In this document: positions 22,201-28,735 of the stretch, piece by piece
Numbering within the stretch: the first letter of the stretch is position 1
Layout of the letters: the number at the start of each line of letters is the position of its first letter
Origin: Phycisphaerae bacterium
GTDB lineage: Bacteria > Planctomycetota > Phycisphaerae > Sedimentisphaerales > Anaerobacaceae
NCBI GenBank assembly: GCA_030604525.1
Contig: JAUVVQ010000004.1
Location: forward strand, 1 to 64,000
DNA: 64,000 nucleotides
Reading direction: 5' to 3'
The notes under the pieces: model-generated
What the model saw: the letters and a program-made list of their open reading frames with translations, nothing else
Database searches by the model: none
What the model was told of the DNA's origin: nothing
Program-made: the position numbers and the translations under genes

Positions 22201-22527
22201 TTACTCAAGCGGCTTTGGCTCTGCAACCTTTCGGTAGCCGATTGCCTTTATTACTTCCAGCACTTCAGTCCAGGTGGGAAAGGGTCTGTCATTATTACGT
22301 TTATAGTTATCAATGGCCTTGATAAACTCAAATTGTTCGTCGGTCATATTACCTTCTTCAGCCGCTTTGCGCTCAGGACTTAGGCGTTTGCCCGGCCCTC
22401 TGCGGCGTTCTAATCCGGACCTTTTTTCCTCACCGTTTTTACGAATATCTATACCCGAGCGTCTGTCCACAACACTTCGCTGGTCTTTTTTGTTACTGTT
22501 CTGTTCTTTGGATTGCTCTTGACTCAT
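22201..22527 (-). CDS. Small charged protein with RRxG repeats, unknown function
   Basis: 108 aa, rich in Arg, Lys and Glu. The N-terminal half has a repeated arginine-rich motif (VDRRSGIDIR, SGLERRRGPGKR); the C-terminal part is predicted helical (MTDEQFEFIKAIDNYKRNN, TWTEVLEVIKAIGYRKVA). RRSGxDRR-type motifs are common in small delta-proteobacterial and Planctomycete proteins of unknown role. No strong Shine-Dalgarno is seen. It is co-directional with the DUF2007-like gene 81 bases upstream. Confidence 0.6.
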   Translation of the reverse strand: MSQEQSKEQNSNKKDQRSVVDRRSGIDIRKNGEEKRSGLERRRGPGKRLSPERKAAEEGNMTDEQFEFIKAIDNYKRNNDRPFPTWTEVLEVIKAIGYRKVAEPKPLE

Positions 22528-22608: not shown

Positions 22609-22938
22609 TTAACCTTGAAACTCCTCGTCGAAGACATCTGCGTCGTAATCATCGTCGGGCTCCTGCTCAATCGCATAGTCGTAAAAATCATCATAGGCAT
22701 CCTGTGATTCTATGATGACATGGGCTTCGTCCAGATATTCTTCGGGAACCATTAAGGCGTAACCGGTTTCCCTGTTTTCGGTTGTTTCATTTACTTCAAT
22801 AACGGTTACCGGTATATCATCGTTTTTCAGCAATGATTCGTAGGTTTTGGCTTCTTCGATGTCGTCAGCGACCGTTACAGTTACGAGGTCTTTCGTATCT
22901 GTCTGTGATTTTTTGTCCTTTTTGTTATATTTTGACAT
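22609..22938 (-). CDS. DUF2007-like putative signal-transducing protein
   Basis: 109 aa. Residues 18-80 (LVTVTVADDIEEAKTYESLLKNDDIPVTV...ALMVPEEYLDEAHVIIES) match the DUF2007/ACT-like pattern of a small ferredoxin-like fold; the C-terminal 30 residues are very acidic (EQEPDDDYDADVFDEEF). GGGGAG precedes the ATG. The gene is divergent from the histone gene. Function unknown. Confidence 0.65.
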   Translation of the reverse strand: MSKYNKKDKKSQTDTKDLVTVTVADDIEEAKTYESLLKNDDIPVTVIEVNETTENRETGYALMVPEEYLDEAHVIIESQDAYDDFYDYAIEQEPDDDYDADVFDEEFQG

Positions 22939-23290
22939 TTTTTACTCCCCGGAAAAATATCACAATATTTATGGTATCTGTTTGTCATATTTTTTTCTTT
23001 ATAAGCCCTTTCGTCAAAAGATACACAAGGAATTATTTAAAAATCTTAAATTTTTCCCGTATTTATTATAATTATTCCTCTAAATATTTATATGCTCATT
23101 TTCGTCTATCGGTTTGATAATAATAAAAATTTAAGGTTAAAGGGTTTTTTCCCTTGCAAAACTTCGGGAGATTGTTTAAAAACCTTTCCAAGCCCTTAGA
23201 AATGGTATAAAAAAGGGCTCAAATGAGGTTCCCGACTGGAAGGAATCGTATTCGAAATACTAAATATTATATTAACAAGGAGGCTTTGTA
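22939..23290. promoter_or_regulatory. AT-rich divergent promoter region with inverted repeat
   Basis: 352 bases between the DUF2007-like gene and the histone gene. AGCCCTT (23191-23197) and AAGGGCT (23213-23219) are inverted copies that frame GGTATAAAA; TATAAA at 23206-23211 is a plausible histone -10. A further short hairpin AAGGG-TTTTTT-CCCTT lies near 23140. AAGGAGG precedes the histone ATG. Confidence 0.35.
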
Positions 23291-23473
23291 ATGGCGGATA
23301 AAGAATCTTTAGTTGTGGCAAGTAAGGTAAAGGCGTACATTAAAAGCAATGATATGATGACCTCGTCTGATGCCTTGGGGGCACTTAGCGATGCTGTATA
23401 TAGTTTGCTTGATGCAGCTATAAAACGCACCAAGGCCAACAAAAGGAGAACAGTTAAAGCCCAGGATGTATAA
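23291..23473 (+). CDS. Single-fold bacterial histone (Bdellovibrio HBb/Bd0055-like)
   Basis: 60 aa, the length of one minimal histone fold. The helix pattern is alpha1 (LVVASKVKAYIKSN), a short loop, a long alpha2 (SSDALGALSDAVYSLLDAAIKRTKANKR) and alpha3 starting at VKAQDV. The RRTVKAQD segment carries the R-T-x4-D arrangement of archaeal histones (HMfB has RKTIKAED). The N-terminal LVVASKVK resembles the Bdellovibrio histone as I remember it. Such proteins form dimers and bind DNA. AAGGAGG lies just upstream and a strong terminator follows, fitting a monocistronic, well-expressed gene. Confidence 0.85.
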   Translation: MADKESLVVASKVKAYIKSNDMMTSSDALGALSDAVYSLLDAAIKRTKANKRRTVKAQDV

Positions 23474-23553: not shown

Positions 23554-23592
23554 TAAGCCGTCCAGTGTTTTGCTGGGCGGCTTACTCTTTTT
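23554..23592 (+). terminator. Rho-independent terminator of the histone gene
   Basis: TAAGCCGTCCAG pairs with CTGGGCGGCTTA (one G-T) over 12 bp with a 7-base loop, followed by CTCTTTTT. Confidence 0.88.
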
Positions 23593-24022: not shown

Positions 24023-25321
24023 ATGAGAGTTTTGATGTTAGGCTGGGAATTTCCGCCTTTTATAAGTGGTGGGTTAGGTACTGCCTGCTACGGCTTGACG
24101 AAGGCGATGAGTCAGCTTGGCATTAAGGTAACTTTTGTTCTGCCGAAACAGGTAGATGGAGATTACGCAACCCATGTCAAATTGCTTACTCCTGGTTCAA
24201 AAGGAGCCGTTTCTGACGAATTTTCAGGGTTAGAAGGGTGCAAAAATATCAGTTTTCGGACTATCGGCTCACCCCTGAGGCCGTATTCTACCCCGGAGTT
24301 TTACCGGCAGAGTATTGAGCGGATGTTGGAGCGCACTGGGAAAAAGAATAAAGATATACCACAAAACTGGCAGTTTGAGGGGATAGATTACAGCGGCGAT
24401 ATGTATACGGAGGTTCATCGATATGCCGCCCTTGCCAACAATTTGGCAAAGGACGAAGAATTTGACATCATTCACGCTCACGACTGGATGACTTACCCGG
24501 CAGCGATAGCCATAGCTGGGCTGACGGGGAAACCCCTCGTAGTTCATATCCATTCCACTGAATTCGACCGCAGCGGTGAGCACGTCAATCAGATGATTTA
24601 CGATATTGAGAAGAAGGGCTTTTATTCAGCAGACAAGATAATTGCTGTAAGCCATTTTACTCGCAACATACTTATAAGCAGATATGGAGTCCCGGGTGGC
24701 AAAATTGAGGTAGTTTATAACGGCGTGGAGCGGAACGGAACCGATAACTGGCCTCTTGAGAAAAGCGGCATACAAAAGGATGAGAAAATAGTTCTTTTCC
24801 TGGGACGTATTACCATGCAGAAAGGACCGGAGTATTTTCTGCAGGCCGCCCAAAGAGTGCTTAGCGTGATGGATAATGTCAAGTTCGTAATGGCCGGCTC
24901 GGGAGACCTTGCTCATAGAACGATTGAAATGGCTGCCGAGCTTGGTATCGGAGATAAAGTCCTCTTTACGGGTTTCCTCAGAGGCGATGATGTCAAAAAG
25001 ATATATCAAATGGCTGACCTCTATGTTATGCCTTCTGTCTCCGAACCGTTTGGTATCGCACCTTTGGAGGCACTCGATAACGATGTGCCCGTGATTATCA
25101 GCAGGCAAAGCGGTGTCTCGGAGGTCCTGGTACATGCTTTAAAGGTTGATTTCTGGGATGTCGATGAGATTGCGAACAAAATTGTTGCAGTTTTAAAACA
25201 TCCTCCTCTGCAGATTACTTTGAGAAATTACGGGAACTTCGAAGTAAGAAAACTGCGATGGAGCGAAAGCGCTGCAAAGTGTGCAAAAATTTATGAGCAA
25301 ATGCTTACTCCGGTAGGATAA
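24023..25321 (+). CDS. GT4/GT5-like glycosyltransferase (glycogen-synthase type)
   Basis: 432 aa GT-B enzyme. The N-terminus MRVLMLGWEFPPFISGGLGTACYGL is the starch/glycogen-synthase catalytic-domain start with the ADP-glucose-type GG loop, then IIHAHDWMTYPAAIAIA. The C-terminal donor domain has VLFLGRITMQKGPEYFLQAA and MPSVSEPFGIAPLEALDNDVPVI (E-x7-E). It stands first in a run with GH57 and GH133 genes, so it probably extends an alpha-1,4-glucan from a nucleotide glucose. A maltosyl or trehalose-type activity cannot be excluded. Confidence 0.85.
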   Translation: MRVLMLGWEFPPFISGGLGTACYGLTKAMSQLGIKVTFVLPKQVDGDYATHVKLLTPGSKGAVSDEFSGLEGCKNISFRTIGSPLRPYSTPEFYRQSIERMLERTGKKNKDIPQNWQFEGIDYSGDMYTEVHRYAALANNLAKDEEFDIIHAHDWMTYPAAIAIAGLTGKPLVVHIHSTEFDRSGEHVNQMIYDIEKKGFYSADKIIAVSHFTRNILISRYGVPGGKIEVVYNGVERNGTDNWPLEKSGIQKDEKIVLFLGRITMQKGPEYFLQAAQRVLSVMDNVKFVMAGSGDLAHRTIEMAAELGIGDKVLFTGFLRGDDVKKIYQMADLYVMPSVSEPFGIAPLEALDNDVPVIISRQSGVSEVLVHALKVDFWDVDEIANKIVAVLKHPPLQITLRNYGNFEVRKLRWSESAAKCAKIYEQMLTPVG

Positions 25322-25372: not shown

Positions 25373-26620
25373 ATGGCTTCTGTTTGTTTCTACTTTCAAG
25401 CGCATCAGCCGATGCGGTTAAGACATTACACCGTCTTTGACAAGCACCACAATTATTTTGATGACCGGGGGAATGCGGCTATTTGCAGGAAAGTAGCTAA
25501 CAAGTGTTATCTGCCTGCCAATCGGTTGATGCTGAAATTAATCAGAAAGCATCAGGGAAGATTTAAAATCGCCTACGGAATAACAGGAGTGCTGCTCGAA
25601 CAGATTATCTCTTTCGCTCCGGAGGTTATGAGCACTTTTGACGCCCTGGCTGAAACCGGATGTGTCGAGTTCCTCGGTGAAACATATTATCACAGCTTGA
25701 GCTTTTTGTACTCCAAAGAAGACTTTTTGGAGCAAGTCAAAAAACACTCCAGCACTATTGAATCTTATTTTGGCCAGAAACCCAGAGTATTCAGAAATAC
25801 TGAGCTGATTTATAACAATGAGTTAGCTGCGTTTATTGAATCCCTCGGGTTGTTTGATGCGATAATAACCGAGGGAGCTGACCATATTCTCGGCTATCGA
25901 AGCCCCGATTTCGTTTACCGGCCAAAAGGGTGCGAAAAATTAAAGCTCCTGTTGAAAAATTACTCGCTCAGTGACGACATCGCTTTCAGGTTCTCTAACC
26001 GGGATTGGAAGCAATGGCCTTTGACCGCTGATAAATTTGCGAGATGGGTAAACAAAGTAAATGGAAATGGTAATGTGGTCAATCTGTTTATGGATTATGA
26101 AACTTTCGGTGAGCATCAGTGGAAAGATACCGGTATTTTTGACTTCTTAAAGCACCTGCCGGATGAAATCCTCAAACATCCTGATAATGATTTCAAAACC
26201 CCTACCGAGGTGGTGAACTCATATCCCCCAATGGACGAAGTTGATGTCCCTAATCTGATAAGCTGGGCTGATACGGAAAGGGACACGTCGGCCTGGATTG
26301 GAAATGCTATGCAGTCAAATGCTATTCACGAACTATACCGGCTTGAGGACGAAATTAAAAAAACTGCTGATAAAAAAATCATAGAAGACTGGAGGAAATT
26401 GCAAATATCGGACCATTTTTACTATATGTGCACCAAGTGGTTTGCCGATGGTGACGTGCATAAATATTTTAATCCTTATGATTCGCCTTATGATGCTTAC
26501 ATAAATTATATGAATATCCTGAGTAATCTCAAAATGCGCTGTTTTTTGCATAAGGATTTGAAGAAAGTCCAGCGTCTTTTTGAAAATAGAAAATCACAGC
26601 CTGAAACTGTTATCGCTTAA
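25373..26620 (+). CDS. Glycoside hydrolase family 57 (alpha-amylase/4-alpha-glucanotransferase type)
   Basis: 415 aa. GH57 start pattern VCFYFQAHQPMRLRHY (conserved HQP), later FRNTELIYNNEL with the probable catalytic glutamate and LFMDYETFGEHQ with the probable acid/base aspartate. It lacks a signal peptide, so it acts inside the cell. AAGGAG precedes the ATG. Between a glycogen-synthase-like GT and a debranching enzyme it probably trims, disproportionates or branches glycogen. GH57 includes all three activities and the sequence does not decide among them. Confidence 0.88.
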   Translation: MASVCFYFQAHQPMRLRHYTVFDKHHNYFDDRGNAAICRKVANKCYLPANRLMLKLIRKHQGRFKIAYGITGVLLEQIISFAPEVMSTFDALAETGCVEFLGETYYHSLSFLYSKEDFLEQVKKHSSTIESYFGQKPRVFRNTELIYNNELAAFIESLGLFDAIITEGADHILGYRSPDFVYRPKGCEKLKLLLKNYSLSDDIAFRFSNRDWKQWPLTADKFARWVNKVNGNGNVVNLFMDYETFGEHQWKDTGIFDFLKHLPDEILKHPDNDFKTPTEVVNSYPPMDEVDVPNLISWADTERDTSAWIGNAMQSNAIHELYRLEDEIKKTADKKIIEDWRKLQISDHFYYMCTKWFADGDVHKYFNPYDSPYDAYINYMNILSNLKMRCFLHKDLKKVQRLFENRKSQPETVIA

Positions 26621-26680: not shown

Positions 26681-28735
26681 GTGTTGACTTTAAAAAGAGA
26701 TAAATGTGCAGAGTTGATTTCTATACCGATAGATGGTCAGCCGCCGGAAAATTTGTTAAGCAGGGAGTGGCTTCTAACTAACAGCCGAGGCGGTTATTCA
26801 TCCTCTACGATTATCGGCTGCAATACGCGAAAGTATCACGGATTGCTCATAGGGTCACTTGCCCCGCCTGTCCACAGGATAATGGCACTTAGCCAGTGTC
26901 TTGAGATGTTGATTTTAAATCCTCAAGCCGCCGGTTCCGACGGGCAGAATAAGAAACAGGTTTACAATCTTACTACTTTCGAGTTCGAAGGGCGGATATT
27001 TCCCAAAAGCTTTAACTACATAGACAAATTTCGCCGTTATTTAGGCGTGCATTTTGACTATAAATTCCCCGAAGTCGAAATTACTAAATCGATATATTTA
27101 CATCCTGAATCTGATGTAGTTGTAGTTGTTTATGATTTTACTCGTCTCTCCGGTCCTTTGAAATTTATTTTGCGCCCCTTTATCGGTTTAAGAGACTTCC
27201 ACACTCTTCAGAAGTCCTATGCTCCGCTTTACTCTGTCGATTTTTCTGACGGTTTATTAGTTCGGCACAATGTGCCTGGAAGCTGTGAGCTGGTTCTAAA
27301 TGCCCCGAAAATGAAATATGTAAAAGACCAGTGCTGGTGGTTCGATTTCCTGTATCGCAACGAAAAACAAAGAGGATATGAATATACCGAGGATTTATGG
27401 ACTCCGGGATTTTATAATTGTGTTCTTGATTCACCGACTCAAATCATCTTCCATGCGGGCTTATATGGACCGGACGACTCAAAAGGTGACTTCAGGGCGA
27501 AAACTGATATTAAGAAAATCAAACAGGATTTATATAAGAAGCAGAAATCGGCAATGGAATCCGTCGATACGAAAGATGAAAATTTGAAGGAGCTCTTTTT
27601 GGCTGCTGACCAGTTCATCGTAAAAAGACAGACCAGGGATGCCTCTGAAACAACTATTGTAGCCGGCTTTCCCTGGTTTGCTGATCTGGGAAGAGATGCC
27701 TTTCTGTCGCTGCCCGGCCTGATGCTTGAGAACGGGAGATACGAAGAGGCAAAATCTCTTCTGTCATACTTCGCACAGGCCGTGGATAAAGGGATGATTC
27801 CGAACCGCTTCGATGAGCATAATCATAAATTGCATTTCAACAGTGTCGATGGCTCTTTGTGGTTTATCAATGCAGCTTTCCAGTATTTAAATAAAACGGC
27901 GGATTTCAGAACCTTCTCACAGGATTTTCTGCCCGCAATCCGCTGGATTGTTGACTCTTATAACAAAGGCACCCGCTTTGGTATTCATGCGGACAAAGAC
28001 GGGCTTATCACCGCAGGGGATGAAAATACCCAGCTTACCTGGATGGATGCAAAATACGACGGAGCAGCTTTTACGCCCAGATTTGGAAAAGCGGTTGAAG
28101 TCAACGCACTTTGGTATAGCGCCCTTCGCCAGCTTGTGGATTTGTATGCGGCTCGTGACAAAGCCGCTCAAAAATCTTATAAATCTTTGGCGGATACAGT
28201 TGAAAACAGTTTCAGAAAAGTTTTCTGGAACGAATCTGCCGGGTATCTCAACGATTGCATCTTCCCGGATGGTTCAGTTGATGCTGCTCTAAGACCCAAT
28301 CAAATATTCGCCGTTTCATTGGCATTTTCTCCGTTGACAGACGAGCAGAAAAAAGCTGTTGTCAACATTATCGAAGAAAAACTGCTTACCCCCTTTGGTC
28401 TTCGAACTTTAGACCCTTCGGATAAAAGATATAAAGGCACGTGTACAGGTTCACAAAAAGAGCGTGACCAGGCATATTATCAGGGAACGGTCTGGCCTTA
28501 CCTGATAGGCCCGTTTGTTGAAGGGTATCTGAAAGTGAATCATTTCAGCAAGCGGAGTAAGAGGAATGCTGCCGGGTTCATCCAGCCGCTTATTCGGAGC
28601 TTAACTCAGGACGGCTGCGTAGGTAACCTCTCCGAAATTTACGATGGCGACAAACCGTATCACCCCAGGGGCTGTATCGCTCAGGCCTGGAACGTAGCGG
28701 AGCTTATAAGAGCATACCGACTGGTCAAAAGCTGA
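26681..28735 (+). CDS. Glycogen debranching enzyme (amylo-alpha-1,6-glucosidase, GH133)
   Basis: 684 aa, GTG start. The N-terminal beta domain has NSRGGYSSSTIIGCNTRKYHGLLI, the standard start of the archaeal/bacterial GDE family; the C-terminal (alpha/alpha)6 barrel has GFPWFADLGRDAFLSLPGL, TWMDAKYDG, ALRPNQIFAVSL and YYQGTVWPYLIGPF. It hydrolyses alpha-1,6 branch points of glycogen in the cytosol. It follows GH57 in the same orientation by 60 bases, so the three genes form an alpha-glucan metabolism unit. Confidence 0.92.
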   Translation: MLTLKRDKCAELISIPIDGQPPENLLSREWLLTNSRGGYSSSTIIGCNTRKYHGLLIGSLAPPVHRIMALSQCLEMLILNPQAAGSDGQNKKQVYNLTTFEFEGRIFPKSFNYIDKFRRYLGVHFDYKFPEVEITKSIYLHPESDVVVVVYDFTRLSGPLKFILRPFIGLRDFHTLQKSYAPLYSVDFSDGLLVRHNVPGSCELVLNAPKMKYVKDQCWWFDFLYRNEKQRGYEYTEDLWTPGFYNCVLDSPTQIIFHAGLYGPDDSKGDFRAKTDIKKIKQDLYKKQKSAMESVDTKDENLKELFLAADQFIVKRQTRDASETTIVAGFPWFADLGRDAFLSLPGLMLENGRYEEAKSLLSYFAQAVDKGMIPNRFDEHNHKLHFNSVDGSLWFINAAFQYLNKTADFRTFSQDFLPAIRWIVDSYNKGTRFGIHADKDGLITAGDENTQLTWMDAKYDGAAFTPRFGKAVEVNALWYSALRQLVDLYAARDKAAQKSYKSLADTVENSFRKVFWNESAGYLNDCIFPDGSVDAALRPNQIFAVSLAFSPLTDEQKKAVVNIIEEKLLTPFGLRTLDPSDKRYKGTCTGSQKERDQAYYQGTVWPYLIGPFVEGYLKVNHFSKRSKRNAAGFIQPLIRSLTQDGCVGNLSEIYDGDKPYHPRGCIAQAWNVAELIRAYRLVKS

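Follow-up and report, generated by a model that had tools for sequence, protein, structure and literature searches.

The 60-amino-acid protein encoded at positions 23291–23473 of the window (the whole 64,000-nucleotide stretch of DNA analyzed here) is a histone and, judged by its residues, belongs to the face-to-face (FtF) class and not to the Bdellovibrio-type dimers. Our favored reading, to which we give a probability of roughly 0.8, is that this alpha3 FtF histone forms a ring tetramer, winds some 60 bp of DNA around itself in the manner of the Leptospira perolatii histone HLp, and acts as a general chromatin protein beside HU. The histone fold, the FtF residues, the distribution, the synteny and the loss described below are established by computation. 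The gene and its ribosome binding site are located as follows:

23291–23473, plus strand: FtF-type histone gene (sequence, profile and fold searches; residue mapping to HLp)
23279–23285, plus strand: Shine-Dalgarno sequence AAGGAGG (sequence; GGAG kept in the leaders of relatives)

The open reading frame starts with ATG, encodes a single histone fold, and is the only histone gene in its own genome. Codon differences from two relatives (L002 and L003) comprise 26 synonymous and 12–14 non-synonymous changes; the reading frame is real and constrained at the protein level. The strong ribosome site claimed by the sequence-only reading is indeed present, with AAGGAGG directly 5′ of the histone ATG. 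In an AlphaFold2 model of the monomer, helices span residues 10–19 and 26–49 and are followed by a short C-terminal turn at 56–58. R46, N50 and R52 are the tetramer residues, and R52 and D59 make up the RD clamp. The R-T-x4-D pair picked out earlier was also found, with R52, T54 and D59 giving the motif R-x-T-x4-D, and all three residues are invariant in the alignment of relatives.

That this is a single-fold histone in a bacterium, as first proposed from the letters of the sequence, is upheld by concordant sequence, profile and fold searches. In a PDB sequence search the best match with a solved structure was HLp (9QT0; E 9.5e-17, ungapped over 58 residues), followed by the Bdellovibrio histone HBb (E 1e-5) and the archaeal FtF histone HTkC (E 1.1e-4), and a profile built from 42 relatives matched HLp at 1.1e-28. 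The AlphaFold2 monomer (pLDDT 83.6, pTM 0.59) has the expected helices, and the top PDB folds returned for it, HLp, HBb and HTkC, are all histones, each at a probability of 1.00. It shows the features by which FtF histones are recognized, a histone fold in which alpha2 is short and alpha3 truncated. Its rmsd to HLp is 3.5 Å, a moderate fit that is probably due to the histone having been modeled as a lone monomer.

Curated family models do not name the protein. Histone families were matched, but no Pfam or NCBIfam model scored above its own cut-off: CBFD_NFYB_HMF reached 15.1 bits (cut-off 21.4), Pfam Histone 14.2 (cut-off 26.4), and NCBIfam archaea_histone 15.5 (cut-off 50). We rejected naming the protein by these matches, since every one lies under its cut-off; the curated histone models cover the FtF bacterial group poorly. 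The same scores are what could be said for the protein being a short helical member of some other family, such as I/LWEQ, the best Pfam match by E-value. The Pfam and NCBIfam matches are weak throughout (E 0.02–0.05), however, with histone families among them, and the protein is kept across an order. The non-histone reading, which we regard as having next to no chance, is already refuted by the sequence, profile and fold searches, all of which returned histones.

Which class of histone the protein belongs to turns on residues at the tetramer interface. FtF histones form a torus-shaped tetramer and carry conserved R48 and N52 (profile numbering), both of which are absent from bacterial dimers, according to a published survey (PMC11390915). 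In HLp the tetramer network joins R49, S52 and N53 with F63, T61 and R55 (PMC12701072), and the ungapped alignment places R46, A49, N50, V60, Q58 and R52 at these positions. The arginine and asparagine of the FtF interface, R48 and N52 in the profile and R49 and N53 in HLp, thus have their counterparts in R46 and N50, a pair that 77 of 80 relatives retain. The residues with which HLp touches DNA (A13, S14, K15, K17, K21, T27, G29, T56 and T57; PMC12701072) correspond to A10, S11, K12, K14, K18, T24, S26, R53 and T54. At most tetramer and DNA-contact positions the residue is identical or a close equivalent. Because R46, N50 and R52 are present, and Bdellovibrio-type dimers lack the first two, these residues place the protein in the FtF class.

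The competing assignment is a Bdellovibrio-type histone that stays a dimer and either bends DNA or coats it end-on. The fold is the same, HBb ranks second among the solved relatives, and bacterial dimers have also been reported from Planctomycetota. The earlier remark that the N-terminus resembles that of the Bdellovibrio histone holds insofar as an LVVxSKVK start is common to both proteins, but HLp is nearer than any other solved structure, and the tetramer positions hold FtF-type residues. The absence of the FtF arginine and asparagine that marks HBb-type histones is not seen here: R46 and N50 are both present, unlike in the bacterial dimers treated in PMC11390915, and the three relatives that depart from the pair, Spirochaetes/Treponema-labeled loci (L074, L076 and L077), carry N and D there. 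With the HLp score also far superior (9.5e-17 versus 1e-5), we consider a dimeric, Bdellovibrio-type histone unlikely.

On the FtF reading, two monomers would form the usual head-to-tail histone dimer, and a pair of such dimers would join as a ring-like tetramer, held together by contacts at the end of helix 2, in loop 2 and in the C-terminal turn (R46, N50 and R52). DNA would most likely be wrapped on the outside of this tetramer, about 60 bp per tetramer by analogy with Leptospira HLp, touching the start of helix 1 (A10, S11, K12, K14 and K18) as well as loops 1 and 2 (T24, S26, R53 and T54). The histone would then be a general, sequence-independent chromatin protein acting together with HU. 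From HLp we infer the tetrameric state in solution, the wrapping of about 60 bp, the abundance and the cellular role. Several findings weigh against this picture. The monomer model has a pTM of 0.59 and an rmsd to HLp of 3.5 Å; the hydrogen-bond network would be partly different, because HLp S52, T61 and F63 are A49, Q58 and V60 here; and the net charge of only +4 is low for the group, whose other members have a median of +8. The histone is also not indispensable everywhere, since a genus in the order does without the gene.

The place of the gene is fixed in most relatives, with two small conserved genes on one side and a cluster of glycogen enzymes on the other:

22201–22527, minus strand: divergent neighbor of 108 aa without a Pfam match (56 of the 80 histone loci have a homologue)
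22609–22938, minus strand: divergent neighbor of 109 aa without a Pfam match (53 of the 80 histone loci have a homologue)
24023–25321, plus strand: downstream starch-synthase-like glycosyltransferase (homologue in 53 of 80 loci; Pfam)
25373–26620, plus strand: downstream glycoside hydrolase family 57 (GH57) gene (homologue in 51 of 80 loci; Pfam)
26681–28735, plus strand: downstream glycogen debranching enzyme (homologue in 45 of 80 loci; Pfam)

Because the locus is fixed, gene order argues for vertical inheritance of the histone within the order; recent horizontal transfer of the window copy is unsupported for the same reason. Histones of the same group also occur in contigs labeled Falkowbacteria and Patescibacteria (L070 and L075), where transfer or binning error is possible. 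The fixed locus may or may not reflect a functional link to glycogen. Since the glycosyltransferase, GH57 and debranching-enzyme genes adjoin the histone in most relatives, the protein could be imagined as a locus-specific regulator, for example of these very genes, instead of a general chromatin protein. We hold this to be very improbable: HLp, the closest studied relative, has no DNA sequence preference and reorganizes the nucleoid (PMC12701072), the histone gene has its own terminator, and the genus without the histone keeps the neighboring genes.

The nearest public relatives are MAGs of Phycisphaerae, Sedimentisphaerales and Anaerohalosphaeraceae (Planctomycetota), the closest 30 or so being 74–82% identical, so the window’s genome probably belongs to Sedimentisphaerales. 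Within this order of uncultured planctomycetes, 90 of the 108 genomes carry the histone gene (59 of the 66 good ones). An even sampling of the class yielded 51 genomes with the histone, only 7 of them outside the order, and 99 of 195 genomes sampled from the phylum, roughly one in two, had some relative, weak matches included. HU is encoded in the window’s own genome and in 58 of the 61 relatives. In one genus (g32: G031 and G248–G255; loci L111, L113–L115 and L119–L122) none of nine sampled genomes has the histone, and one of these (G031) is 99% complete. Four of them (G031, G249, G254 and G255) retain both upstream neighbors together with the downstream glycosyltransferase in the usual arrangement, and the interval between shows no remnant of a histone gene. 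Because the flanking genes persist without it, this absence is a lineage-specific loss and not missing assembly.

In relatives, a block comprising a T-tract, TTGCAA and TGTAATAA is conserved about 90–160 bp 5′ of the histone start codon; its A/T-rich part ends in TTTTTTTGTTGCAA and is followed after about 17 nt by a TGTAATAA-like element (L002–L058). By its sequence, TTTTTTTGTTGCAA-N17-TGTAATAA reads as a putative −35 and −10 pair. A long form of the pattern had 10 exact matches in 61 genomes, all 10 at the histone gene, and a short 14-mer had 41 matches, 27 of which lie 86–156 bp before a matched histone start, while the reversed 14-mer gave about 8 matches in the identical genome set. The block is nearly histone-specific in the 61 genomes. 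It could act as a strong promoter that includes an upstream element, or a dedicated regulator could bind there. A degenerate copy occurs in the window at 23143–23182, with TTGCAA at 23154 and TAAAAA at 23177.

23154–23182, plus strand: proposed promoter, TTGCAA (−35), 17 nt, TAAAAA (−10) (in this genome, placed solely by alignment with relatives)
23191–23219, plus strand: inverted repeat AGCCCTT/AAGGGCT around TATAAA (23206) (no more than chance would give; probably part of the 5′ leader)
23554–23584, plus strand: intrinsic terminator hairpin, 14-bp stem, then CTCTTTTTGG (sequence; hairpins behind relatives)

It had been suggested that a TATAAA flanked by an inverted repeat marks the control region, and this did not survive analysis. 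Repeats of equal length (7-bp arms, here 23191–23197 and 23213–23219) arose in 106 of 200 shuffles, and we rejected the element as promoter or operator since the repeat is at chance level, is absent from relatives, and lies downstream of the aligned promoter at about 23154–23182. The TATAAA at 23206 is probably not a promoter and would lie in the leader, although, more simply, it could be an independent −10 box in the window’s genome. Three relatives (L004, L007 and L025) have extra, partly hairpin-forming sequence at the place of TATAAA, with nothing clearly in common with the window.

CsrA-like leader hairpins with AAGGAT-like GGA loops were seen in L005, L007, L014, L025, L033 and L046, each suggestive singly, and csrA is present in 31 of 31 good genomes. 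RNAalifold returned no consensus structure for the relatives’ leaders; leader hairpins ranked below 5% against shuffles in only 19 of 59, a figure inflated by four leaders that have no such hairpin; and the window’s own leader folds little better than its shuffles (z −0.80). Given the lack of a consensus and the z value of the window leader, we do not claim a CsrA-type hairpin combining a GGA loop with the Shine-Dalgarno sequence. A search for RNA families and tRNAs across the window found none. At the other end of the gene, the terminator attributed to it was recovered, as a 14-bp stem 81 bp 3′ of the histone stop followed by a T-rich stretch, and similar hairpins follow the histone gene in 33 of 65 relatives compared with 12 in the reversed control.

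The order bears on the question of what histones do in bacteria that also have HU. We see about an even chance that a DNA-wrapping histone and HU jointly organize the chromosome across the order, and that the histone’s own promoter block, fixed locus, vertical descent and clean loss make a natural comparison with and without it. Because one genus lost the histone and kept the surrounding genes, chromatin, genome size and expression can be compared with and without a wrapping histone.

Among solved histones, HTkC of the archaeon Thermococcus kodakarensis (9F2C) shares the FtF tetramer architecture and RxTxxxxD but is distant, at 38% identity in the fold alignment. HBb (Bd0055; 8CMP, 8FVX and 9EZZ) likewise has a single short histone fold, the LVVxSKVK start and the RD clamp, but is a strict dimer without the FtF-interface arginine and asparagine and is 42% identical in the fold alignment. 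HLp (9QT0, 9QT1 and 9QT2; PMC12701072) is about 55% identical in the fold alignment; its tetramer residues R49, N53 and R55, the RD clamp and most DNA-contact residues are kept here, whereas S52, T61 and F63 are replaced by A, Q and V, G29 by S26, and T56 by R53. The settings differ as well: the HLp gene adjoins SMC and MAP, the window gene has other neighbors, and the window’s genome has an HU gene, while L. perolatii is reported to lack HU and neither HU nor Dps is reported from Leptospira.

Relatives of the window protein have N-termini from 3 residues shorter to 34 residues longer, and 21 of 80 have an extension of at least 10 residues, in most cases lysine- and alanine-rich (up to 34 residues in L048, L064, L066, L073 and others, some with AAPAKK-type repeats); the window protein is tailless. 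Tails on bacterial FtF histones are already reported (PMC11390915). Histone genes are persistent in Planctomycetota (PMC10627809), and our literature search found no paper specifically on histones of this order. FtF histones from Planctomycetota are likewise already published (Schwab et al. 2024, PMC11390915), and the protein described here shares with them the phylum, the group, the R/N tetramer residues and RxTxxxxD; they are treated as a survey-level group, and the available text of that survey does not describe the locus in this order, the promoter block or the loss in one genus. To this known group our analysis adds order-wide presence, HU alongside, a fixed locus, a promoter block and loss in a single genus.
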